DNA of 28,103 bases from a virus, in the IMG/VR virus record IMGVR_UViG_3300042505_000610, positions 1 through 28,103 of that record. One strand, 5' to 3'. Positions within the stretch are counted from its first letter, which is position 1; each line of letters begins with the position of its first letter. The notes below the pieces were generated by a model. It was not told the DNA's origin and did not search any database. It saw only the letters and a program-made list of their open reading frames with translations. The position numbers and the translations under genes were made by a program. Positions 1,459 through 28,103 of the stretch are shown here, in pieces.

Positions 1459-2568
1459 TTAAACACCAAACACATTTCTTCCATTAGCAACAGCATCAAG
1501 AACAAACCTTTTGTTCCTGAAACCATTCAACTGATTATGCACATACGGACCCTCGTTCGGATGGAAAATTGCAGCATATTTCTGAATCCGTTTTTCATCA
1601 GACAATGCGACGCTGTCGGGAATCTCGTAGTAATCCCTGAAACGCACAACACCATTTTCCAGTTCTATGTTTTCCTTGACAAGAATTTCATCCAAAGTCC
1701 ACAACTCGGGATTGCGGGAAACAATCCAACTCAAAGAACTTGCGGCAAGTCTACTGGCAACAATTTCAATTGTTTCCGCCCTAGTTTCCTCAAGATTATT
1801 TGGCTGGGTGCGGGCATTTGTGGAACCATGCAAAAAATTGTGTATATGCATAGGCGGCAAAGAATCCAAAACCTGAATCTCCATTTCGGTCAACTGCATA
1901 AAACGCCAAAAAGAATCAGCCAGCACAGCAGCCTCATCATCCGCATAAAAAGGTTTTCCGTAAAACAATTTCCATTCCCAAACAAGCCTCAAAACTTCCT
2001 GAAGCGTTTTTCCAGCAACTGGAACAATAAGATTCTCAAACTTTTCCTTAAGGACAAACTCTTCGTGCGTAAACTCTATATAGAAAATGTGTCCCACTCC
2101 AGCAACAGAAAAGAAAGACTCATAAACAACAACTTGAGAAACATTGGAAAGAACGGGAAGAGGAAAATCCTGTTCAAACGGTCGCACACCAAAAGAACCC
2201 CTATCGCATCGCCAATCTCCATTGGCAATTTCCCTAGAGGGAGAAAAATAGAAAACACCATTAGTTGACGACAATTTTTTGTTCAGAATGTTCAAAACCC
2301 GTTCCACGGGATACAAATTCAAAATCTGTGACTGTCCATCCGCTTCAACAACCAAATTCTGCAAACCAAGTTTTTCAGTAGGATGCTTCCAAGCGGCAAG
2401 AATTGAACCATCAGCCATTTTGAAAAAGTCAACAAAGTCAACTTCCTCATTGCCATTGCCAGTTGACACATAGGCGACAACATTGTCTGAAAACTTGGGC
2501 AGTTTATCCAAAAGATAAAATGCGCGATGGGTTTCCAAAACATCCAAAGAAAAATTATTTGTTTTCAT
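1459..2568 (-). CDS. Conserved-looking protein of unknown function, 369 aa
   Basis: I do not recognise this protein. It has no signal peptide, no membrane segment and no low-complexity region, and reads as a soluble, mixed alpha/beta protein. Notable stretches are a hydrophobic-aromatic region near residues 145-170 and a helical region rich in E and L near 175-260. Only two bases separate its stop from the start of the large terminase, and only six bases separate it from the glycine-rich fibre gene upstream, so it belongs to the leftward late operon. Its place directly after fibre and fibre-tip genes makes a tail adhesin accessory protein or fibre chaperone possible, but that is inference from position. 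Its coding sequence is more AT-rich than the plus-strand block. Confidence 0.8.
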   Translation of the reverse strand: MKTNNFSLDVLETHRAFYLLDKLPKFSDNVVAYVSTGNGNEEVDFVDFFKMADGSILAAWKHPTEKLGLQNLVVEADGQSQILNLYPVERVLNILNKKLSSTNGVFYFSPSREIANGDWRCDRGSFGVRPFEQDFPLPVLSNVSQVVVYESFFSVAGVGHIFYIEFTHEEFVLKEKFENLIVPVAGKTLQEVLRLVWEWKLFYGKPFYADDEAAVLADSFWRFMQLTEMEIQVLDSLPPMHIHNFLHGSTNARTQPNNLEETRAETIEIVASRLAASSLSWIVSRNPELWTLDEILVKENIELENGVVRFRDYYEIPDSVALSDEKRIQKYAAIFHPNEGPYVHNQLNGFRNKRFVLDAVANGRNVFGV

Positions 2569-2574
2569 AGTACC

Positions 2575-3714
2575 TCACGGACCATAATACTTGAAGGTGA
2601 TGCCACCAGCAAGACCAGCACCAAAATGGGAACCACCACTACCGACAATTGTTCCAGAGCCAACAGTAAAACCGCCAGCAGAACCATTCCCCTGCGTTCC
2701 ATAGCCTCCGCCGCCGTTGCCGCCACGCAAACCGTATGCGCCGCCACCAGCACCACCGTTTCCGCCTACCTGAGAAGGAGAGTTGTGTCCCGTTGCGTTG
2801 CCGCCACCACCATCGGTGCCGCCGCCACCGCCGCAAGCATAATATCCACAATCCCAACAATAGTTATCTTGATAATACCCACCGTTGCAGGCTCCGTTCT
2901 TGTCAACGCTGGTACAAACAAAACTTTGCGAACAAACCTTATACCAACCATATGCATTTGTACCGCCAAGGTTGGATGGGTTTGAACCAGAACCAGCAGT
3001 ACCACCACGACCATTCGGCGCACCACAGGAGCCAGGATGTTCGCCAGCGGTGCCACCTCCGCCAGTCCAACTAGTAGACCCAATAGTCAGTGTCGTACTT
3101 CCACCAGAGGTGGCAGTACCAACACCAACACCACCGTTGCCTGCGGCACCACCACCACCGACAGAGCCGCTAATGGTTTGTGTTCCCCCAACAGAAGATT
3201 GATGGGAGGAAAACAGTCGGTAACCACCACCACCGCCGCCGCCATAGTTGGCTCCCCCGCCGCCGCCGTACAGCAACATTTCATAAACAACAGGAGCAAT
3301 CGCGTTATCAAGATACGGTGTAATGGACGGCAAACTCAAAGACCAAGAACCAGAAGTTGTATTTGTGTAGGTTTTCAAAGACCAAGTAGTAAAAGAGTTT
3401 GTTGCCCCAATGGTTGTCCCCGCTGCATTAACAGCCCTGCACCTGTAATAGTAGGTGGTGTTATTCAGCAACCCACTGGCATTATAGTATGCGTAATAGT
3501 TGCTTCCAGTAACCGTGACCCAATGTGTCACGGTTGAAAAAGAAGCAAACGAGGCACTGGTGGAGTAGTCAAAATAAACCGTGGTGTCATGCAAATTGGC
3601 GGAGACAAACGCGGAAAAGGTGCAGCGGTCCTGATTAAAGTTAGTTGCTGCTTGCGGCACAACGGTAGGAGGGAGTGCTACACCGCCAGCATAAAGCCCT
3701 CTGTGAGTCGGCAT
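2575..3714 (-). CDS. Fibre-tip-like protein: FN3-like domain plus polyglycine domain
   Basis: This is probably a virion adhesin that decorates or tips the collagen-like fibre encoded just upstream. Residues about 20-110 look like a fibronectin type III-type beta sandwich: aromatic and threonine-rich strands ending with the typical phrase TTYYYRCRAVNAAG. Residues about 145-370 are a glycine-rich domain with runs of four to seven glycines separated by small residues, as in polyglycine-II type receptor-binding tips such as gp38 adhesins of T-even-like phages. A cysteine cluster (residues 261, 267, 276, 286, 289, 294) lies inside the glycine domain and could form disulfides or bind metal. The start ATG overlaps the stop of the collagen gene (TAATG). 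Receptor binding is inference; the domain composition is visible. Confidence 0.82.
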   Translation of the reverse strand: MPTHRGLYAGGVALPPTVVPQAATNFNQDRCTFSAFVSANLHDTTVYFDYSTSASFASFSTVTHWVTVTGSNYYAYYNASGLLNNTTYYYRCRAVNAAGTTIGATNSFTTWSLKTYTNTTSGSWSLSLPSITPYLDNAIAPVVYEMLLYGGGGGANYGGGGGGGYRLFSSHQSSVGGTQTISGSVGGGGAAGNGGVGVGTATSGGSTTLTIGSTSWTGGGGTAGEHPGSCGAPNGRGGTAGSGSNPSNLGGTNAYGWYKVCSQSFVCTSVDKNGACNGGYYQDNYCWDCGYYACGGGGGTDGGGGNATGHNSPSQVGGNGGAGGGAYGLRGGNGGGGYGTQGNGSAGGFTVGSGTIVGSGGSHFGAGLAGGITFKYYGP

Positions 3715-4988
3715 TAACCAAGGTCCCCCATCAGGGCATACGCATTAGGGGCAATACACATCAGCGTTGCCGCCGAACCAACCGCCCTAAGGGATGTTGC
3801 GGGCGTTGAATACAGCGTAATCCCAGCACCAGCAGAAAACGAGACAGCACCAGCCCCAGTACGCAAAAAATCACAAGACTGACCAATATTAAATGCCGTT
3901 CCCGTATTAAGTGTTATCGTTGCAGCAGCCGTCACATTGTGAAAAACCCCGACCGCAGTGGGAGACAACGAAAGGCTTCCCCCGACACTCAAAACAGTTT
4001 GAACAGTCGTCCAGTCACCAGCAGGACCTTGCGGACCTGTAGCACCAGTAGCCCCAGTGGCACCAGTAGCACCTGTAGCCCCCGTAGCCCCAGTAGGACC
4101 AGTGGGTCCCTGTGGACCCGTATCACCCTGAGGTCCCTGCGGACCAATCGGTCCAGTAGCACCAGTCGGACCCTGAGGACCAACAGGACCAACATCACCC
4201 TGAATACCTTGAGGACCAGCAGGACCCTGAATTCCCTGTATGCCCTGCGGACCCTGAGAACCGACCGCACCAGAAAGATTCACAATCCAAGAAGAATAAG
4301 TACCCGAACCTTCGGTATCCGTAACAGTTGCAACCATGGCACCAGTACCAGCATTATAGGAATCAATTTCCGCGTGAATATGGTTAGGCACACTATGTGA
4401 AATCAAAATAGTTTGGTTGACAGAATAAGACAACCCAACACCAACCATCAAAGAAACAGTAGCCCCCACAGCGGGAATCGTAATTGTGCTAGTTGAAGTA
4501 GTTTCGTATTTGTCTCCAGCCAGACCCTGTGGACCTTGGGGACCCTGAACACCTTGCGGTCCCTGCGGTCCTGTAGGTCCAATCGGACCAGCATCACCCT
4601 GAACCCCCTGAGGACCAGTAGGACCAGTTGCCCCAGTTGCTCCAGTCAAACCAATCGGTCCCTGAGGTCCTTGAGGACCAGTCAAACCAATAGGTCCAGT
4701 AGCACCCGTAGGACCAGTAGGTCCAGTAGGACCCGTCAAACCAATAGGACCCTGAAGCCCCGTCAAACCGATGGGACCCTGCGGTCCTTGCGGACCAGTA
4801 ACCCCTTGGGGACCAACGGGTCCCACGGGACCCTGAGGACCCGTGGAACCCGTTGCGCCCGTTGCACCAGTCGCGCCAGTTTCCCCCTTGGGACCCATGC
4901 TTCCTGAAGCCACAAGGCTTATACCCTGACTGGTTACAACACCCGACAGTATGTTCCCTAGTTTAACATAAATTTCCGTAGTAGACAT
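3714..4988 (-). CDS. Collagen-like phage fibre protein, 424 aa
   Basis: This is a trimeric collagen-like fibre, probably a tail or side fibre. A 30-residue N-terminal segment is followed by Gly-X-Y triplets at residues 32-159. A globular beta-rich insert spans roughly 160-242, a second Gly-X-Y block 243-325, and a C-terminal beta-rich head runs to residue 424. The triplets are dominated by GPQ, GAT, GPT and GLT, usual for phage collagens, which trimerise without hydroxyproline. The start is taken at 4988 rather than an in-frame ATG ten codons upstream, because 4988 forms a TAATG overlap with the preceding gene and the extra codons would sit inside that gene. The C-terminal head probably nucleates trimerisation, and the glycine-rich gene that follows probably supplies the tip. 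Confidence 0.9.
4014..4262 (-). repeat. Second Gly-X-Y triplet repeat block of the collagen-like fibre
   Basis: In-frame nine-base repeats encode 27-28 Gly-X-Y triplets (residues 243-325). The DNA shows near-identical units such as five consecutive GAT triplets near residues 300-317, a likely site of copy-number slippage. Confidence 0.9.
4512..4895 (-). repeat. First Gly-X-Y triplet repeat block of the collagen-like fibre
   Basis: In-frame repeats encode about 42 Gly-X-Y triplets (residues 32-159). A longer motif of the type [13 protein letters not shown] recurs at least three times, so the array grew by duplicating units longer than one triplet. Confidence 0.9.
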
Positions 4989-5323
4989 TATCGGGTCACA
5001 TCCGCCAACACGGTACACTTACCAGCAACAATAGTAGAAACAACACCACCCGAAGTGCGCTGAAGGTCCCAAAACGCATTACCAGCCACTAGGGCGGCTG
5101 ATGCGGCAGACGCAAGGGTCAGGGTAACCACACCACCCACCGCGTTCGTAATCACACAAGAAAAAGATGCGGCAATAGTAGCCGAGTCTCGGGTATAGCG
5201 GATTTGGGACGCAAAGGAGTCCCCCGTCAGGTTAACGGGGGTTCCATCGGGGTTGCTCACGGTCACATTGATAACTTCCGTGTCCCCTCGCATAATTTTA
5301 ATATCTTGCTTTGCAGGCACCAT
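4988..5323 (-). CDS. Small beta-rich tail/baseplate-like protein, 111 aa
   Basis: The N-terminal phrase, an RGDTE motif followed by alternating hydrophobic strands and DGTPVNLTG, resembles the N-terminal beta domain of baseplate/upper-fibre proteins of the BppU type. Such domains usually anchor fibres to the tail. The rest is a regular series of short beta strands rich in V, T, A and G with no membrane segment. It starts one base after the stop of the zinc-ribbon gene and its stop overlaps the start of the collagen-like fibre, so a role as fibre connector is likely from both fold and position. The similarity is by eye; homology to BppU is not proven. Confidence 0.75.
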
Positions 5324-5324
5324 A

Positions 5325-5471
5325 CTAATACTCGTTTTGTTCTATCTTGAACGACTTGGCTCGCCGTTCCTTGGTGTCACGGTACTGCTCGCAGACAGGA
5401 CACCTGTAGTGGTCCACGCGGCGGATTTCCCAGCCACAGTTCTCACATTCGTCAATCTCGGGAAGATTCAC
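5325..5471 (-). CDS. Small zinc-ribbon protein, 48 aa (GTG start)
   Basis: This short gene encodes a rubredoxin-like zinc knuckle: CENCGWE, then RCPVCEQY, two CxxC pairs 14 residues apart, followed by a basic tail (KERRAKSFK). There is no in-frame ATG; GTG at 5471 is the best start, preceded by a purine-rich stretch. The start lies inside the end of the small terminase-like gene (20-nt overlap) and the stop is followed after one base by the next ATG, so it fits the operon exactly. Its place beside a terminase small subunit suggests DNA binding during packaging, or a late-transcription role, but this is inference. Confidence 0.65.
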   Translation of the reverse strand: MNLPEIDECENCGWEIRRVDHYRCPVCEQYRDTKERRAKSFKIEQNEY

Positions 5472-5874
5472 GGAAAGACTTCTCTTGGGTGGCTACGCTG
5501 GCAATAAGTTCCTCAAGGTCCTTGTCGGATATCTCCGCCAAAGACTGGGTATGGTTAATGTTAACCTGTGCAGGGGCAAGACGGTTGGTTGCCTGAAGGT
5601 ACAGTTGGGCGGCTTTATTGTCGCCGCCGAGCGCACGATTATAGATTTCGTCCAATAGTTTTTGGGTTCGTTCGGGGGACCCTTGGAGTTCGTCTACTCG
5701 TTTTTGCCATTCGGCTTTGAAGTGGGGTTTCTTTTCCCATCTCCTGAGGGTGGTTTCGTCCACGCTGTGGAGTTTGGCGTAGGCGGTTTTGGATGCGGGC
5801 TGTCGGTGTCCGTGCGGAATGAGGAGCCAGTTTAGGTAGGCTTCTTGTCGGGTGTCTAGGGTTGTTTCTTCCAT
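5452..5874 (-). CDS. terS: Putative terminase small subunit, 140 aa
   Basis: Small terminase subunits bind the packaging site on phage DNA and hand it to the large subunit. The protein has an N-terminal helix-turn-helix around residues 25-50 (tolerance to the host-style phrase SKTAYAKLHSVDETTLRRWEKKP). A helical oligomerisation region follows, with GDNKAAQLYLQATNRL near 84-99, a phrase typical of phBC6A51-type small terminases. The frame is open much further upstream, but the upstream codons run through the divergent control region, so ATG 5874 is preferred. It is the first gene of the leftward operon. Odd: five genes, including fibre genes, separate it from the large terminase at 1456. A plain HTH regulator is the alternative. 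Confidence 0.72.
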   Translation of the reverse strand: MEETTLDTRQEAYLNWLLIPHGHRQPASKTAYAKLHSVDETTLRRWEKKPHFKAEWQKRVDELQGSPERTQKLLDEIYNRALGGDNKAAQLYLQATNRLAPAQVNINHTQSLAEISDKDLEELIASVATQEKSFRESSRD

Positions 5875-5935
5875 ACTATTGGGTTGGCTGTTCTGATTGT
5901 TGACTGGTTTGGTCGGGAATAGAACAGCGGGGGGG

Positions 5936-5941
5936 ATTATA
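5936..5941 (-). promoter_or_regulatory. Candidate -10 box of the leftward operon
   Basis: A perfect TATAAT on the minus strand lies 62 nt upstream of the small-terminase start, in the only gap before this operon. No good -35 is present at 16-18 nt, so the promoter may need an activator or a phage sigma-like factor. Confidence 0.45.
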
Positions 5942-6023
5942 GGGGGGGTCAAGGAAAACTGTATTGACGGTACGAACCTTAGTGAGTACCGACAATGAAT
6001 ACTGTATACTAGGCTTAAGGATA

Positions 6024-6046
6024 GGTCCACCCAAGGTGGGTGGACC
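6024..6046 (+). promoter_or_regulatory. Perfect 9-bp inverted repeat, operator- or hairpin-like
   Basis: GGTCCACCC, five bases, GGGTGGACC. It sits between a TATACT hexamer (6005-6010) and the first rightward start codon (6078). It could be a repressor operator between the two divergent operons or a hairpin in the 5' leader of the rightward transcript. A weaker pair, CGGTAC/GTACCG, lies at 5968-5991. Confidence 0.5.
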
Positions 6047-6077
6047 CCCAAAACAGAACTATAGGCGGGGACAACCA

Positions 6078-6194
6078 ATGCGTATCATCAAGGCACTAGC
6101 GATTGTTATCGGGACCTTTTTTTGTTTGGTGCTAGCGTCCGTTATTTACCTGCTGAATGCCGCTAAAGACTTCCGCACAATTCCCCTAGACTAG
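6078..6194 (+). CDS. Small single-span membrane protein, 38 aa
   Basis: Residues 4-26 form one hydrophobic helix (AIVIGTFFCLVLASVIYLL region) after a short basic N-terminus (MRIIK). A short charged C-terminal tail follows. It is the first gene of the rightward operon, ten bases before the next start. It could be a membrane-anchored accessory such as a superinfection-exclusion or holin-like peptide, but size and topology alone do not decide that, and it lies far from the lysin gene. The start is supported by GGGGA eight bases upstream. Confidence 0.6.
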   Translation: MRIIKALAIVIGTFFCLVLASVIYLLNAAKDFRTIPLD

Positions 6195-6203
6195 GATGGT
6201 GTC

Positions 6204-6491
6204 ATGTTTGAGAATATGGTGAACAACCTGCCCGAATGGACCGAGGTCAGGGTTCGCTGGATGGATGCTCACGCACCAGCCAGCGGCTGGCACGACCTAG
6301 ACGAATACACCCCCGATGATGCGGTAGCGGTCACACTGGGGCGTATCTGGAAGGACTGCAAGCCGAACTATCTGACACTGGTCGGAACCATTTTTGAGGG
6401 TGACGACATGAAGATGGCTAGCGACATTAATCATATCCCGTTCGGAATGGTTTTGGACATTGAAATCATAAAGGAACCCCATGCCCGCTAA
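6204..6491 (+). CDS. Small conserved phage protein of unknown function, 95 aa
   Basis: The sequence has the pattern of a widespread small phage protein. VRVRWMDAHAPASGWHDLDE is followed by a short helix, a beta strand ending LVGTIFEGDD, and IPFGMVLDIEII at the C-terminus. The W-DA and G-W positions and the closing IP-G motif recur in such proteins in my recollection, but no function is established. It overlaps the next gene by 11 nt. No membrane segment or cysteine pair is present. Position at the start of the rightward operon suggests early expression. Confidence 0.75.
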   Translation: MFENMVNNLPEWTEVRVRWMDAHAPASGWHDLDEYTPDDAVAVTLGRIWKDCKPNYLTLVGTIFEGDDMKMASDINHIPFGMVLDIEIIKEPHAR

Positions 6492-6804
6492 TTCCACCCC
6501 TAGAGACCCTAGACTGCAACGCGCTGGTGTTAGCGGCTATAACAAGCCCAAGCGTACCCCCAGTCATCCAACCAAGTCCCATATTGTCGTCGCCAAAGTA
6601 GGGTCCACCATCAAAACCATCAGGTTCGGACAGCAAGGTGTCCGAACCAACCAGACACGCGGACAACAGGAAGCATTCAAGTCCCGCCACGCCAAGAACA
6701 TCGCCAAAGGACCCCTCAGTGCCGCATATTGGGCAGACAAGGTCAAATGGGACCCATCCAAAACTGCTGCACCCAAAAACAAGAAATGGGTTAAAGGCTC
6801 CTAA
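6481..6804 (+). CDS. Basic conserved phage protein, 107 aa
   Basis: This is a highly basic protein with the order GYNKPKRTPSHPTKSHIVVAK, TIRFGQQG, and FKSRHAKNIAKGPLSAAYWA, ending KNKKWVKGS. This arrangement resembles a small conserved family I recall from marine and freshwater phages, including cyanophages, annotated only as hypothetical. High K/R content suggests nucleic-acid contact. AAAGGA sits five to ten bases before the start, and the gene overlaps the preceding one by 11 nt. It is followed after six bases by the tRNA gene. Confidence 0.8.
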   Translation: MPANSTPRDPRLQRAGVSGYNKPKRTPSHPTKSHIVVAKVGSTIKTIRFGQQGVRTNQTRGQQEAFKSRHAKNIAKGPLSAAYWADKVKWDPSKTAAPKNKKWVKGS

Positions 6805-19149: not shown

Positions 19150-19591
19150 GCGGGTCAGACCCGTCAGCCCAAGCGGTCTTGGTGGTCTCAATATGCAACC
19201 ACTTTGCCCACGCTTCACCCATGCCCCAACCATCAGGGTTACCCTTGCGCCAACCCTTGGTGGGGGTCCACACAGAGTTGCCAACATAATCCACAATCAT
19301 CTGCACACCCCACTCCTTTGAGTGGTTCACCAGTTCCTTCATCGCGTTCTTTGCTGCCACCCGTGTGTCATAACGCCAGTCAAGTGCGGCACCAAACGAA
19401 TGGCTACTAACCTTGTCGTTGCCACGCTGGTTTCTTTTGGCGAGAATACCGACACTTTGCCCACCGTGACGCTTCACCAAATAATCCTTGATAGCCACCA
19501 AGTTCGGACTAGCCTTGCGGAACCGTAGGCGGTCAGCCGCACGGTTCGCCTGCCAATCATAATACTCCGTCTTGTTAATCGCCACCTTCAA
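19121..19591 (-). CDS. M15-type peptidase endolysin, 156 aa
   Basis: This enzyme probably cuts peptide bonds in host peptidoglycan for lysis. The zinc site has the order typical of the M15 (VanY/endolysin) family: SSHSFGAALDWR (H64, D71) and WLHIE (H133). No separate cell-wall-binding domain or signal peptide is present, so export would need a holin. None is adjacent, although small membrane proteins are encoded at 6078, 10729 and 17589. Its start overlaps the end of the 1746-residue virion gene by 17 nt. An alternative is a virion-associated peptidase, given its place behind virion genes. The peptide specificity cannot be told. Confidence 0.85.
   Translation of the reverse strand: MKVAINKTEYYDWQANRAADRLRFRKASPNLVAIKDYLVKRHGGQSVGILAKRNQRGNDKVSSHSFGAALDWRYDTRVAAKNAMKELVNHSKEWGVQMIVDYVGNSVWTPTKGWRKGNPDGWGMGEAWAKWLHIETTKTAWADGSDPLSRILQPPK
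19144..19169 (+). terminator. Candidate terminator hairpin between convergent operons
   Basis: GGCTGA, one bulged G, CGGGT, loop CAG, ACCCG, TCAGCC: an 11-bp stem with a single bulge that includes the stop of the rightward operon and lies inside the 3' end of the lysin gene. No T-tract follows on either strand, so termination efficiency is uncertain. Confidence 0.45.
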
Positions 19592-22500
19592 TCACACCCC
19601 TTCTAGCCAAATCCTTAAGGAAGTCTTTGATTTGGAACTGTCGGTTAATTGCCTCACCACGCTGCTGGCGTGTACCGACCTCACGGACGGGGACACCAAG
19701 CCATGACAGACGACTCGTGTTTGCCCGCTCCGCATAGGTGTCCTTGCCGCCCAGAACACCGCCAGACAGTCGTTGCGCCTGCCCCAGCGGGGGCAACAAA
19801 CTGGCAATAGCATAACTGACACGGGGGTTTACCTCAACCTCACCATCGGCGTTACGGCGACCAAACGCATCAATACCACCAATAGCACCAAGGTTCGCTA
19901 TGAGGCTGTCAACACCTCTAGCCTCGTTGAACTTGTCGGTAAACGGAATATCCATAGCCAACTGCTTATCTGCCAGCAACTCAATCGGCACCTTGATAAG
20001 AGGGTTAGCCTGACCGATAAGACGCTTCGGGTCCAACAGTCCAGCCGCAGTAGACGCAAGCCTGTTTTGCGGAAGGTCAGGGGCAAGCACGGTGTTCCCA
20101 CCCAGTCCGATAGGTCCAACCTCGGCAAGCCACTTCGGCATCATAATGTCCTCTGACACTGGATGTCGCTGCCTGATTTGTTCGTACACCGAATAGGTGC
20201 TGGGGCGAAGCAACTGTTCGGTCATCTGCAAAGGAATGTTCCTTGTGGTCCAAACCCAAAACGGAACGAAGTACCGTTTTGTGGTTTCATCCAACGCCGA
20301 CAGGTCGCTATAATCAAAGTGGTATCGGCTGATGCGGTAAACCGCATCATCATATGAGCCACCATTCCTGAGGGTATCCAACGCCATAGGCAGACGGACC
20401 GAGTCCTCCACAAAAGTATTAGCCTTGCCGAACGCTCGGGTAACCTTGTTGTTGATAATTTTCTCGGTAAACCCACGAACTGTTGGTGCCATAAAGTCGT
20501 CCGAAATGCCACGACCTGTTGCGTGGACAGCACGGAGAGCCTTCTCATACAATGCCCGCTCGGCGGCATCCGTAATGCCCAACTCGTCCAGCCACCTGTT
20601 CGGACCGTACTTGTGATAGGCGGTCGCGGCACGAATGCCGCGCCCCATCTCCTCAAAACTGACACCAGCAACCGTGTTCATAAAGGTTGCGCTGATAGCG
20701 TTACGAACAGAGAACCCTAGGCTCATCGTTGCGTAAATCTTGAAGGCGTTCTGATAGTCAATCATTGCCCTCTGCCAAGCACTGCGGGTTGCAAGGTTCT
20801 TCAGTTTCTTCACATTCGGAAGCAACTTCTCCGCCATGTCGGGCGGCATCTGAATACCCATATTCTCAATCTTGACCCATCCGTCAACAATGTCATCCAC
20901 CGCCAACGGCAACAGGTCACCAGCACGGGCAGAGTTCACCAAACCCTCGGACACCTGCTGGTACGCCTCATAATACGCCAACTGTGCCTCATCCGCGTGC
21001 AACTGGGTAAACACCGCTTCTAGCGCACGATGCTCACGGGTGCCACCCAACGCCTTGATGGACTCCATCCTGCGGAGAACCAAATCAGACCACAGCCGCG
21101 TGTCTGATGCGGGCGCACCACGCGGAGGTTCCATAGCCAGCAGGGTGCGGAAATCATCCAACTCCTGACGCAGGTAAGCACCAGTCTTGTCGTCCCACCG
21201 CTCCAAAACCTTCTTCTGATTAAACAGGGTGGCAAGACGCTCACGCTGACCCTGAAGCCTGTCCTCAATCTTGGAGGTCGCATTGCCCTGCATACGGGCA
21301 ATCTGCGCCTCCTTGGCGGCAATCTTGCTATTAAGACTAGCCTCGCGTTTGTTCAGAATATCCAACGCCCGTTCACGGGTCACCTTCTGCTGGCGACCCC
21401 CAACCGTAATCGTAAGAGTCCCCGACTGCTCCCAGTCTGTCCACGCCTTCTGTGCCGCTTTCATGCGCCTAGTGCCAGCCCCCTTCAGGGCGGCAGCCTG
21501 ACGGGTGGCTGGCTTCAACTCGTCACTAAGAATTTGACGCTGAAGATTCGTAGTCTGAGCATCCATACTAGCCTCAGTGACGGTAGCCAGTTTCTCGCTG
21601 GAGTTAAGCGCAGCGGTATGGTAATCGTCATCCATAATGGCGCGGACAAACTCGTTATCCTTTGTGAACTGCACGGGGGAACTGGTCCGCCCAGTAAGGT
21701 TGTCGGGAGAATACTGTTTGGCGTATGACCAGTTTTCGGGGACAATCAGCGAATAGGCTCCTTCAGCCATCGGATTGTTTTCCCCCATAACGACACGGCT
21801 GGGAATAAGAATGGGTTTGGTGGCAGACTGCTCAGCCATATAACCCAGAATGTCATCCACCATCTGGGCGGCAACCAAATCCGAACTTTCAAGCCCCGCA
21901 ACAGCGGCAACATCGTTAAGCAGTTCCCTAAGAACAGACATTGACTGCTCAAGGAACTCGTCCGTCACAACACCAAGTTCATGCTGGGATGCCTGCATCG
22001 TTCCGACAAACCCGATAAGTTCCGAAAGTTCGGGATATATTTCGTCAAACATTTCGTCAAGGTAACCCTCGTTGACTGTATCTTCCCACGCCTGAGTCCA
22101 CACGGGGCTGTCCAGCCCAGCACGGTCCATCGCCAAACCTATTGCCTCACCGATACCGCCGTCCGAATCCCAAAACTCATAAAACTTTTCGGGTTCCCTC
22201 ATGTCGTGAACATTGTCAAGGGTGGGGGCGTGAACGGCAACGGACCGTTCATCGCCCATAAACGCAGCCCGTGCAGCCGCCATCTCATCCGTGGTCATGC
22301 CTTCGCCGCCAGCAACAATCGGGCGGGTACTCAAAACACGGTAAGGAGGACCTTGAGTGTTGGGGTCAAACGGGCGTTCCGTCAAGTCATCCCAAACACC
22401 GTACACCAAACCGTCATCAGCATAATCAGCCTCAACAATTACACGACCCAAAACCTCGTGACCCTCAATATCTTGAATCAACTGCTTCTCAACCTGAAGC

Positions 22501-24815
22501 ATCTCGTTCAAAGTGTCCGCATCAACCTCAGGCAGATTATCCAACTGCGACCTGATAGCCCTGAGACGCTTCTGCAACTCCCTGTAGGCGACAGTGTCGG
22601 AGACACCTTCGCCCCTGTTGATTGCATCCAGCAACTTTGTGGGACTCTTCGGGATACGCTTAGCGTTCGGATACATTGTCACGAAAATGTTCCGCAACTC
22701 CTCCACCGCTGCCGCCTCAACGGCATCACCGTTCACAATCGCAGCCTTAAGTTGTTCAACCTCGTCAAACAGTGTTTTATGCAAATCATAAAACGCGCCA
22801 CGCTCAGCCTCACCCTTGGTTGCGGCAACCCTGACGGCTTCCGCAAGCCTGATTTCAATGTCTGCAATAGCCTGTTGAACCTTGGCAATATCCGCAGCGT
22901 TAGAAGTCATAACAGCGGTCTTTTCATCCAGCAAAGTCTGAACACGAGCAACAACATCCTGAGCCTTGTTGCCAGCAGAAGCACGACCCCTGTTTACCGC
23001 CTTAACCAACTGCTTCTTAATAGCCAGAATCCCGTTATGGGATTCCTGCAACTGGGCAACCAACTGGTTGTTCGGAACAAACTTTTGGTTAATCACACGA
23101 CTGAAATCCGACCCATAATCCATCATGCGCCTAAAGTAGCCTTCACGCCCACGGGCAGCCGCCATAGAATACGCATACGAATCAGCAATCTGCACAAGGT
23201 CCGTACTGAAAAAGTCAACATCCAAACCTGTTTTACTGCGGAAAATATCGTTCACTTCCCGCACAACACTTTCGCTGGTTATGTCCTCGCCCATAAACTG
23301 GGAATACTTGACGGTGCCATCGGGCTGAACCTCGGGTGCGCGAATCTTACGATGCATGGCGGAACCAGTAGTTGAACCAATTTCCGTCATGCTCATATCG
23401 GAATCCTTGAAGAACCCCGACCTTTGCCCCTTGTCGCTGTAAATCCACCGAAGCGCATCATCCGTGATGCGGTGGTGGATAAAGTCCTCAACAAAACCAA
23501 TATCACGCATGGAGCCGTTAAAGTCCACATTAAAACGCCTGTAGACCGTGTTCACCTCGTCACGCAACTGGTTCTGCCAGTTGCGGTAATCATCAACAAT
23601 GCCACGAAGATGGGCGGGGACAGCACGGTTCGGGTTCTCAACAAGGTCATAAAGAACCTTTTGGTCAGGCTCGGACAACTGGCGAACCGCCTTCATGGTT
23701 TCCCTGATGCCCCACAGGTTCTTGTTGTATGACTCCGCCTTGAAACCCTTGGCATACTTTGTGGATGTCCAATGCGCCACCTCTTGCAGAACATCATTGT
23801 CGGACAAACCCTTGTTTCGTCCGATGTTTTTGGTGACCAAACCGACACGGCTGGACGGGGTCATCTTCGTCCTAAGGGTGGTCAATTTGTTTGAGCGGGC
23901 AATCAGGTCACCAGTAGCCGCTCTGGTGCGGGTGGCAACGCTGTATGCTTTGTTGCCCGAAAACATGGACGCAATAGCCTCGGTGCGTGGCAGAACCTGC
24001 CCAGCAAAACGGATACCATACTTGATGTTTTCCGCCTCACGGACATCCTTCGGTACGGCACTAACGCCGTACCGCATAATGTCATCCAGTTTCCCAGCCA
24101 GTTGCGGATGCTTCGCCAACATTTCAGCAGTACCCAACCGTGCGGTCAAAGCCATTCTGCCCGCCTTGCCGACATGGTTCATTGCGCCAACACCCGCATA
24201 AGTCAGCGGGTCAAACGCGACATCAGCAGCAAAATCAATGATGCCATCAACCCACTTAACACCAGTGTTAATCATCTTAAAGTTTTTGTCACCCGCCTGA
24301 CGGGTAAAATCAGACCAACTAGCCTTCGGTCCGTTCGGGTTACGGTCCGCGTCCGCCGCATCAAAAGCCTGATAGGTTAGGTCCGCAATTTCCTTAATAC
24401 CCGACTGGATGCCACGGGACACAAGGGACGACCCTTCAAGGGCAACCTTGACGGGTGCAAACGCAGCCTGCCCAGCAGCCTTGATGAGTCCACCCCACGA
24501 TGTAGCCTCACGCAAATCGGTCGGCTGACGGAACCCACCCTGCTTGTATTTAACCTCAAGAGTGCGGCGCAACTGGTTCTTTGTAGATTCACTAGCAGTG
24601 GAGTTAGAGATTTTTGCCAACGCATTAAAATATGCGTTGTCCAACTTTTCCTGCTCCTCCAAAAGAGAAGTCTTGGTGTCAGGAATTCCACTATCCGTTT
24701 TGGCGGGGACTGCCCCGCTCAAATCAAGAGCGTTTTTCTTGTCGGGGACAAACGGGTTCGGCGGAGTGGTATTGGATGTTTTCGGTTTACTAAACGGGGA
24801 ACGATAAACAGCCAT
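19575..24815 (-). CDS. Giant virion-associated protein, 1746 aa
   Basis: At 5.2 kb this is the largest gene in the window. The N-terminus is polar and proline-rich. Residues about 185-220 contain a hydrophobic phrase (FAADVAFDPLTYAGVGAM). A long helical, coiled-coil-like region spans about 590-800 and others lie near 1130-1330. The phrase FVPFWVWTTRNIPLQ, near residue 1515, recalls the C-terminal parts of large internal virion proteins that are ejected with DNA in short-tailed phages. No RNA polymerase catalytic motifs of the N4 type, no lytic transglycosylase motif and no protease motif are seen. It is probably an internal core or ejection protein; a tape-measure role is possible but the repeats and long uniform coil of tape measures are absent. 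Confidence 0.72.
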   Translation of the reverse strand: MAVYRSPFSKPKTSNTTPPNPFVPDKKNALDLSGAVPAKTDSGIPDTKTSLLEEQEKLDNAYFNALAKISNSTASESTKNQLRRTLEVKYKQGGFRQPTDLREATSWGGLIKAAGQAAFAPVKVALEGSSLVSRGIQSGIKEIADLTYQAFDAADADRNPNGPKASWSDFTRQAGDKNFKMINTGVKWVDGIIDFAADVAFDPLTYAGVGAMNHVGKAGRMALTARLGTAEMLAKHPQLAGKLDDIMRYGVSAVPKDVREAENIKYGIRFAGQVLPRTEAIASMFSGNKAYSVATRTRAATGDLIARSNKLTTLRTKMTPSSRVGLVTKNIGRNKGLSDNDVLQEVAHWTSTKYAKGFKAESYNKNLWGIRETMKAVRQLSEPDQKVLYDLVENPNRAVPAHLRGIVDDYRNWQNQLRDEVNTVYRRFNVDFNGSMRDIGFVEDFIHHRITDDALRWIYSDKGQRSGFFKDSDMSMTEIGSTTGSAMHRKIRAPEVQPDGTVKYSQFMGEDITSESVVREVNDIFRSKTGLDVDFFSTDLVQIADSYAYSMAAARGREGYFRRMMDYGSDFSRVINQKFVPNNQLVAQLQESHNGILAIKKQLVKAVNRGRASAGNKAQDVVARVQTLLDEKTAVMTSNAADIAKVQQAIADIEIRLAEAVRVAATKGEAERGAFYDLHKTLFDEVEQLKAAIVNGDAVEAAAVEELRNIFVTMYPNAKRIPKSPTKLLDAINRGEGVSDTVAYRELQKRLRAIRSQLDNLPEVDADTLNEMLQVEKQLIQDIEGHEVLGRVIVEADYADDGLVYGVWDDLTERPFDPNTQGPPYRVLSTRPIVAGGEGMTTDEMAAARAAFMGDERSVAVHAPTLDNVHDMREPEKFYEFWDSDGGIGEAIGLAMDRAGLDSPVWTQAWEDTVNEGYLDEMFDEIYPELSELIGFVGTMQASQHELGVVTDEFLEQSMSVLRELLNDVAAVAGLESSDLVAAQMVDDILGYMAEQSATKPILIPSRVVMGENNPMAEGAYSLIVPENWSYAKQYSPDNLTGRTSSPVQFTKDNEFVRAIMDDDYHTAALNSSEKLATVTEASMDAQTTNLQRQILSDELKPATRQAAALKGAGTRRMKAAQKAWTDWEQSGTLTITVGGRQQKVTRERALDILNKREASLNSKIAAKEAQIARMQGNATSKIEDRLQGQRERLATLFNQKKVLERWDDKTGAYLRQELDDFRTLLAMEPPRGAPASDTRLWSDLVLRRMESIKALGGTREHRALEAVFTQLHADEAQLAYYEAYQQVSEGLVNSARAGDLLPLAVDDIVDGWVKIENMGIQMPPDMAEKLLPNVKKLKNLATRSAWQRAMIDYQNAFKIYATMSLGFSVRNAISATFMNTVAGVSFEEMGRGIRAATAYHKYGPNRWLDELGITDAAERALYEKALRAVHATGRGISDDFMAPTVRGFTEKIINNKVTRAFGKANTFVEDSVRLPMALDTLRNGGSYDDAVYRISRYHFDYSDLSALDETTKRYFVPFWVWTTRNIPLQMTEQLLRPSTYSVYEQIRQRHPVSEDIMMPKWLAEVGPIGLGGNTVLAPDLPQNRLASTAAGLLDPKRLIGQANPLIKVPIELLADKQLAMDIPFTDKFNEARGVDSLIANLGAIGGIDAFGRRNADGEVEVNPRVSYAIASLLPPLGQAQRLSGGVLGGKDTYAERANTSRLSWLGVPVREVGTRQQRGEAINRQFQIKDFLKDLARRGVIEGGD

Positions 24816-27328: not shown

Positions 27329-27474
27329 TACTTTTCACCAACCTTCTTCTTCAAGTCGTCAACTTCTTTTTGTAGTCTTTCCAGTTCACGAGACAAACTC
27401 GTGAACGCCTGAATAAGAACACCAGAAGTGTCAATCCCAGAAAGCAGGGACATAAACGGGGGATTCCAAGCCAT
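27328..27474 (-). CDS. Small coiled-coil protein, 48 aa
   Basis: After a short hydrophobic N-terminus (MAWNPPFMSLLSGIDTSG) the product is a heptad-patterned helix (FTSLSRELERLQKEVDDLKKKV). Its start overlaps the stop of the fibre gene and its stop overlaps the next start, both as TAATG, so it is tightly coupled. Similar small proteins next to fibre genes act as trimerisation or assembly helpers, but no direct homology is recognised. Confidence 0.72.
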   Translation of the reverse strand: MAWNPPFMSLLSGIDTSGVLIQAFTSLSRELERLQKEVDDLKKKVGEK

Positions 27475-28103
27475 TACGCCACCCGAATCAAATAGTTCAG
27501 AACCACATAGGGCTGAAGGTTGTCGTGTGCCTGTCCGCCACCTGTCGGGTTGTTCGTTGCCGTAGTGGCGTTGTTAACCGCTGTTTCAGAGTTGTTCGTT
27601 GCCGTTGTAGCCTGATTAGTTGCCGTAGTGGTGGAAATTGAGGCAATGCTCGGTGTGGTTGACGCACCGTTGGTTCCCGCAGCCACATAATCCGTGGTGT
27701 TGTTATGCGCCCCAGAAGAAGCAGAAATAGTTGCCTGCGTTGTGTGCGTATGCGGGTCCTGAGTGTGGTTATGCGGGTTCTGGGTATGACCGTGCGGATT
27801 CTGGGTGTGGTTGTGCGAGTTCTGTGTGTGGTTGTGGCTCGGAATTTGTGATTCCGTCAGCGTCACAGTCTTGACACCACCCAGTTCGCCCAGCCCATCA
27901 AACTCGGTTTGGGTTGCATCCAAACCGACAATGACCCGACCCTTCAGGTTCGGCAGGTTGAAAGTTGTTGACCCGTCACCAACACCATAGGTAATCCCCA
28001 CCAACGCAAACAGGGACGCATACGAGGTGCGGCTGATGGCAGAGCCATCTGCCAGCATCCACTTGCCACCCGCAGGAGCAACAGAACCAGCAAACGGCAC
28101 CAG
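27474..28103 (-). CDS. Tail fibre with collar domain and HxH repeats (5' end beyond the right edge)
   Basis: This is the C-terminal 209 residues of a fibre gene that continues past the window; a GTG at 28100 is inside the frame and is not taken as the start. The visible part begins with the phage tail collar fold: PAGGKWMLADGSAISRTSY, LFALVGITYGVGDGSTTFNLPNLKGRV. Then come five HxH motifs spaced six residues apart (encoded at 27741-27836). A T/N-rich repeat region follows, and the closing signature is GGGQAHDNLQPYVVLNYLIRV. In T4 long-fibre tip gp37, HxH motifs of a trimer hold iron ions in a needle; the same is inferred here. It probably binds the host receptor. Confidence 0.9.
   Translation of the reverse strand: MVPFAGSVAPAGGKWMLADGSAISRTSYASLFALVGITYGVGDGSTTFNLPNLKGRVIVGLDATQTEFDGLGELGGVKTVTLTESQIPSHNHTQNSHNHTQNPHGHTQNPHNHTQDPHTHTTQATISASSGAHNNTTDYVAAGTNGASTTPSIASISTTTATNQATTATNNSETAVNNATTATNNPTGGGQAHDNLQPYVVLNYLIRVA
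27741..27836 (-). repeat. Tandem HxH hexapeptide-coding repeat
   Basis: Five units of about 18 bases encode HNHTQN, HNHTQN, HGHTQN, HNHTQD and HTHT with a constant step of six residues, matching the metal-coordinating HxH ladder of T4 gp37-type fibre tips. Confidence 0.8.

Follow-up and report, generated by a model that had tools for sequence, protein, structure and literature searches.

A mirrored partner array is the main result of this analysis of a tail-fibre gene from an uncultured phage. The protein carries a ladder of HxH heptads and, beyond a variable segment, a second array of TATN-type heptads, and in its relatives the unit numbers of the two arrays covary. Read from the sequences, this suggests that the topology and strand register of the fibre needle can be deduced from the gene and that the needle is a modular object. 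Reading the protein as a fibre tip that resembles gp37 of phage T4 holds up, but tips of this kind are known already; what is new here is the TATN partner array.

The collar-needle gene and its two arrays

The window, which is the whole stretch of DNA analysed, is a complete IMG/VR contig of 28,103 bases. Its features of interest are listed in Table 1. The visible part of the gene is 100% identical to a gene on a second contig (L002), where the full protein has 273 aa and the two genes upstream show weak matches to PHROG structural-protein families. The window protein passes the curated cut-off of the Pfam Collar model PF07484 (71.6 bits vs a cut-off of 24), and the gp10 C-terminal domain (PF21939) matches it as well (E 6.9e-9). 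The ladder follows this collar domain, as the earlier note on this DNA had described, and all five of the HxH motifs that the note had reported are present, at residues 90, 97, 104, 111 and 118 of the 209-aa frame. Their spacing is exactly seven residues and not six as had been claimed, which corresponds to a tandem repeat of 21 bases (TRF period 21). This exceeds chance: when the residues of the protein were shuffled 20,000 times, at least five HxH were reached in 0 shuffles.

The TATN array is absent from the earlier note and was found here by TRF and translation, with TRF placing this second 21-base array at 27549-27629. Its four TATNxxx heptads equal the number of complete HxHxQxx heptads in the ladder, also four. 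Judging from the alignment, the C-terminal segment that follows should go back to the collar. The same layout of collar, ladder, variable segment and TATN heptads is found in relatives, with other numbers of units.

Table 1. Features of the collar-needle gene in the window
Feature	Position	Strand	Basis or remark
Tail-fibre (collar-needle) gene, 3' part	27474..28103	-	209 aa visible; 5' end cut off by the right end of the contig
Phage tail collar domain PF07484, residues 2-58	27930..28100	-	Pfam E 5.1e-20
HxH ladder (outgoing) with period 7, made of four complete HxHTQ[ND]x heptads followed by a fifth HxH	27744..27836	-	Frame translation, TRF
Segment between the arrays, residues 121-159 (39 residues), presumed distal tip	27627..27743	-	Variable among relatives; topology of T4 gp37 (available part of PMC6957217)
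Returning partner array, four TATN-type heptads TATNQAT-TATNNSE-TAVNNAT-TATNNPT	27543..27626	-	TRF, translation
C-terminal segment, ending in QPYVVLNYLIRVA	27477..27542	-	Alignment with the last part of gp34 of phage A-1(L)

Two other genes of the window may belong to fibres. The product of 3714-5018 (minus strand) is a collagen-like fibre (PF01391, E 2.5e-33) and a second probable trimeric fibre of the phage, while 19575-24815 (minus strand) encodes a protein of 1746 aa with no Pfam match and a weak match to a PHROG tail fiber family (E 6.9e-6).

Covariation and mirror order of the arrays among relatives

Three viral scans yielded 235 loci, all of which were used, with 272 matching frames. 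After frames running off the 3' end were discarded and those with identical last 120 residues were merged, 211 proteins were left, of which 209 have a longest HxH chain of 1 to 12. The first and third scans are biased towards ladders, because their query peptides contained ladder letters. The second scan used a collar-only query, and its proteins unseen in the first scan include 70 with HxH, split into 25 with a chain of at least two and 45 with a single HxH.

Presence of the two arrays is closely linked. Among the 211 proteins, at least two chained TATN heptads occur in 81 of the 83 proteins with at least two chained HxHxQ heptads and in 0 of the 117 that have no chained HxHxQ heptad, while all 11 proteins with one chained HxHxQ heptad have no more than one TATN heptad. 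Unit numbers were compared by script. Under a first definition, set after sequences had been read by eye and before misfits were inspected, the number of later units equalled the number of ladder spacings in 60 of the 98 proteins with at least three chained HxH, against a mean of 17.7 and a maximum of 32 in 10,000 permutations. The 38 misfits were then read and suggested that the matched unit is the complete HxHxQxx rather than the bare HxH; the unit definitions were widened, and the counts for 84 and 79 proteins given next use the widened definitions.

At least two clustered Q units were found in 84 proteins, with the partner array after the ladder in 79 and before it in five. By the chained count, the HxHxQ and TATN numbers of these 79 proteins are equal in 57, within one of each other in 77 and two apart in the other two (r 0.95), so that they are unequal in 22 by script; 20,000 permutations, which ignore relatedness, gave a mean of 15.3 and a maximum of 30 equal. 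A plain motif count under the widened definitions gave equality in 53 of 79. As a control for relatedness, we formed 27 disjoint nearest pairs with different ladder lengths and collar identities of 51-100%. The partner array shifts by the same number as the ladder in 18 of these pairs and in the same direction in 22; it is unchanged in four and moves in the opposite direction in one. The clearest exception to pairing is a MAG protein (L244, 6001-6597) with seven HxHxQ heptads vs four TATN heptads. An archaeal MAG, titled Methanobrevibacter, also has a short ladder (L248, 6001-6060), accompanied by one TATN and one TAEN heptad. Across all parsed heptads, the Q is kept at 0.90 of 340 outgoing units and the N at 0.99 of 296 returning ones, the latter figure being favoured by the seed pattern.

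Since both arrays are 21-base tandem repeats, they could in principle be a functionless product of repeat slippage or an artefact of assembly; short-read assembly may alter copy numbers, and the L244 protein is mismatched. This origin is scarcely credible, however, and was set aside as unlikely on three grounds: the second contig matches the gene at 100%, the two arrays covary, and adjacent HxHxQ units are highly different at silent sites. In 223 pairs of adjacent units, 0.72 of silent sites differ (pS) vs 0.18 of other sites, and for the window's own outgoing heptads the values are 0.74 and 0.12. That units are invariant at both H and at Q follows from the way they were selected and carries no evidence.

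The order of units provides a second line of evidence, as an antiparallel hairpin demands that the unit order be reversed on the returning strand. Nineteen ladders are mixed, with some units of nine or eleven residues, and here the later array is exactly reversed in eight and exactly forward in none; in the remaining 11, neither order is exact by script. For instance, a ladder of 7,7,9,7,7,7,7 in L044 is followed by 7,7,7,7,9,7,7, and L059 has a 9 and then ten 7s in the ladder and ten 7s and then a 9 in the return. L164, L118, L169 and L187 are also clear cases of reversed order, and L057 (7,9,7,9,7,7,7) gives a reversed fit if an additional unit is read on the side of the tip. Ten loci, taken from genomes of bacteria and archaea, were judged by eye. 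The order fits in L239 (7,7,9,7 vs 7,9,7,7) and in L242, L243 and L247, whose nine-residue unit comes first in the ladder and last in the return; the number fits in L241 and L246, L240, L245 and L248 fit only when altered units count, and L244 does not fit. Taken together, the mirrored and covarying arrays fit an antiparallel hairpin needle like those of T4 gp37 and A-1(L) gp34, in which a rung would be a paired module; the sequences strongly indicate that the needle chain runs out and back between collar parts.

In the five proteins with the partner array first, the order of the strands is swapped, with TATN heptads leading and the HxH ladder last (L064 2568-5189, L065 2145-5321, L067 1989-5159, L070 1-906 and L075 1-1230). 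Counts agree in L065 and L070 (3 vs 3 each) and in L075 (2 vs 2), and differ by two in L064 and by one in L067 by script. No Pfam Collar match was seen in the three swapped proteins tested (L064, L070 and L075). Close relatives also differ by parts of the needle. L006 and L023 have the tip and most of the needle in common, but the collar-adjacent unit of the ladder is exchanged in L023, and so is the unit that ends the return array. L044 and L052 show no difference before the needle, whereas needle and tip differ, with matching changes in the two arrays; exchange of a whole needle is thus one route by which counts remain equal.

Other ladder types were sampled from contigs selected solely for four HxH spaced at a constant period, using four patterns; the figures hold among the matches listed and are unfit for comparing frequencies. 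Low-complexity ladders were set aside, 35 at period 6 (27 kept) and 22 at period 8 (20 kept) among the matches listed. Of 70 nine-residue ladders among the matches listed, 21 are followed by a strongest repeat at lag 9, none by one at another lag, and 49 by no repeat above threshold, so only the period is shared by the two parts. The count rule is unsupported for nine-residue ladders among the matches listed, with 13 of 40 equal and a permuted mean of 11.8, 34 of 74 having been left out with fewer than two later units. Of 61 heptad ladders among the matches listed, 8 have lag 7 for their strongest later repeat, 10 have lag 8 and 5 have another lag, and no clear later repeat was found in 38. 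The pairing rule therefore holds for the HxHxQ type and not for every heptad ladder. Heptad ladders of other types (HTHTGPS, HTHSMQS; L303, L314) are followed by a strongest repeat of eight residues, so the length of the partner unit may differ from that of the ladder unit.

Known needles, the proposed trimer and its metal

By sequence, the nearest solved structure is 8kec, the long tail fibre gp34 of Anabaena phage A-1(L). Residues 9-208 of the window protein align with residues 175-379 of the gp34 arm, with E 3.4e-20 by phmmer and 1.9e-21 by profile. Both homologues run in one order, from a collar-like part through the HxH array and the returning segment to the C-terminal segment. Read by eye from the alignment, gp34 has four HxH units and four returning units of nine residues each, whereas the units of the window protein have seven, and gp34 is without the HxHTQ/TATN motif. 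The arm comprises residues 156-379, is 180 A long, and is likened to T4 gp37 and described as binding host cells in the available part of PMC10966104; the words "histidine", "metal" and "HxH" are absent from the main text of that paper.

An AlphaFold2 monomer of the full-length L002 protein, made with a 33-row alignment, has pLDDT values of 70-87 in the collar, 63-68 in the ladder, 46-58 in the tip and 58-64 in the return, and its needle is without any assigned strand. Foldseek with this monomer places 8kec first (chains A and B) and 2xgf, the needle of T4 gp37, next (E 3.7e-4, probability 0.98). Together with the A-1(L) alignment, this gives good support to the gp37-like needle that the earlier note had proposed. 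The comparison with gp37-type tips that the note called for gives a match at the level of fold but not of sequence: 2xgf is absent from the matches of phmmer to E 1 and of the profile to E 0.1. The chains of T4 gp12 and gp10 do match the family profile, but only over the collar side or the first HxH; their collar-type domains are of the PF07484 and PF21939 types, and both models match the window protein.

As described in the accessible portion of PMC6957217, residues 882-1009 of gp37 form the needle, which contains seven irons and interrupts a collar-type domain (811-881 and 1010-1026); the substitutions H929A and H931A abolished plaques. Its HxH series resembles that of the window protein in kind. 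The motifs stand at 883, 915 and 929 before the tip and at 966, 980, 989 and 998 after it, with irregular spacings of 32, 14, 37, 14, 9 and 9, whereas all five of the window protein lie in one run with period 7. The T4 spacing of nine is also odd, and by this analogy the odd spacing of seven would be no argument against histidines that face the axis.

We consider it likely that the window gene encodes a collar-needle type of tail-fibre or receptor-binding protein, with a paired three-chain hairpin needle and a metal at each HxH rung. Each chain would begin with a short N-terminal part and the collar, run outward as the HxH ladder, make the variable tip, return as the TATN array and end at the collar. 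Three such chains would wind about one axis, so that in each rung three HxH, that is six histidines, would surround one metal ion, probably iron(II), in octahedral geometry. The Gln of HxHTQ and the Asn of TATN may help to lock the outgoing and returning strands together. As one rung would take one heptad from each strand, the needle would grow by whole paired modules. Its variable tip would bind the receptor. A surface-exposed histidine ladder that binds a host ligand or mineral directly is very improbable: ladder length varies widely in the family, as that of an adhesive repeat might, but since the ladder covaries with a second array, a buried and paired role is more probable, and in T4 the receptor residues are located in the gp37 tip (available text of PMC6957217).

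By analogy with the solved fibres, it is very probable that the five histidine pairs bind metal ions in a slender needle of three chains, and iron is taken as the ladder metal from T4 gp37 and the pyocin fibres. According to the available part of PMC6116203, iron was seen by X-ray fluorescence in the R1/R2 pyocin fibres and is also present in the P2 and phi92 spikes, while the T4 gp12 crystals held zinc at HxH after heat denaturation and reconstitution in zinc salt. The same hairpin needle might thus carry another metal (zinc, nickel or a mixture) or have only some rungs filled, a possibility that we entertain tentatively on the strength of the gp12 zinc; the seven irons of gp37 and the iron of the pyocin fibres speak against it. 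A paired trimer without metal, with histidines serving for packing or hydrogen bonding, appears unlikely. The outgoing Gln and the returning Asn are also strongly kept, so packing is under selection too; however, HxH is the iron motif in solved fibres and spikes (same part of PMC6116203), and a single HxH without an array is common, as in the 45 of 70 new HxH proteins of the collar-only scan.

The earlier note took a histidine ladder of this sort to predict a metal-stabilised receptor-binding tip in a phage unrelated to T4. Such a prediction is not novel, as HxH motifs have been proposed to hold metal in gp37-like fibre tips of Alteromonas phage R22Y (six motifs, PMC11705849), Burkholderia phage E094 (seven motifs, PMC8174754) and the BASEL phages AnnaHegner and ManiWeber (PMC11990801). 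Since such tips outside T4 are published, the kind is already known. The accessible parts of these descriptions mention neither heptad ladders nor a paired returning array. The second tail fibre of the E. coli phage HeidiAbel (Bas97; L250 613-1278), a laboratory isolate, is a family homologue with 38% identity to L006. Read by eye, it has three nine-residue units before the tip and three after, compared with the seven-residue units of the window protein, and its authors predicted the tip as T4 gp37-like but truncated, without mention of its HxH motifs (available part of PMC11990801). The string HNHTQ was not found in the full-text literature searched, nor were paired arrays in repeat-bearing needles among the matches listed, as far as titles and abstract openings go. 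In T4 itself, duplications of a small histidine-box domain of gp37 reportedly widen the host range, according to a report of 1996.

Proposed paired modules and three-copy proteins of bacteria

A broader reading, which we favour somewhat, is that these are needles of paired modules, each rung combining an HxH unit with a fixed partner unit. HxHTQ[ND]x would pair with TATNxxx, the HGHGITDPG type with TTGISVNxx, and longer units likewise. Modules would be added, lost or exchanged, and the strand order swapped, with the register kept, and both the length and the metal load of a needle could be read from the genome. As part of the same reading, small-genome bacteria, probably Patescibacteria, would have captured the needle in three-copy proteins of prepilin type, forming a covalent trimer that could be a pilus-borne adhesin.

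Fibre needles are poorly predicted from sequence because the strand register is invisible. In this family the sequence itself appears to spell out the register, which would provide a simple test of trimer models for many fibre tips. The number of metal ions per phage could also be estimated, which bears on proposals of phage-carried iron in natural waters, and the needle may serve as a modular scaffold with its length set in whole rungs. The three-copy proteins would offer a single-chain version for structures and an idea of the means by which episymbiotic bacteria might attach to their hosts.

One such locus is that of the bacterium UBA6025 (L239), in which two adjacent genes (1774-4488 and 4493-6754) each encode three Collar stretches and an N-terminal prepilin signal (PF07963, above cut-off). 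The 753-aa protein of this locus has an fn3 domain above cut-off too. In the same class, a one-copy query found matches in 26 of 392 genomes. The fetched loci contain 26 frames that match the family; 12 of them carry three collar-needle copies (11 genomes; L239 and L259-L268), and the prepilin motif is present by pattern in nine of the 12. The copies of a protein share their HxH spacing: spacings of 7,7,9,7 occur three times in one of these proteins and a spacing of 7 occurs three times in three. Eight have one HxH per copy, 160-169 apart, and two of these eight have an extra upstream HxH. Splitting by script was possible for five of the 12; in each, all three copies have an identical pattern and are 52-84% identical to each other. 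An AlphaFold2 model of a three-copy protein had a mean pLDDT of 38.7 and was discarded.

The occurrence of three copies in a single chain provides independent, if indirect, support for a three-chain needle. The carriers, which are small-genome bacteria with listed sizes of 0.5-1.7 Mb, are probably Patescibacteria, to which L245 belongs by title. It is possible that the three-copy prepilin-type protein is a natural single-chain trimer and a pilus-borne adhesin. Work joining Patescibacteria, tail fiber and pilin was not found in the literature searched, nor was a tail collar in the Saccharibacteria or pilin literature among the matches listed. The other frames of the 26 depart from the three-copy form: L286 has two copies, L271 is split over two frames, and the remaining frames have one copy.
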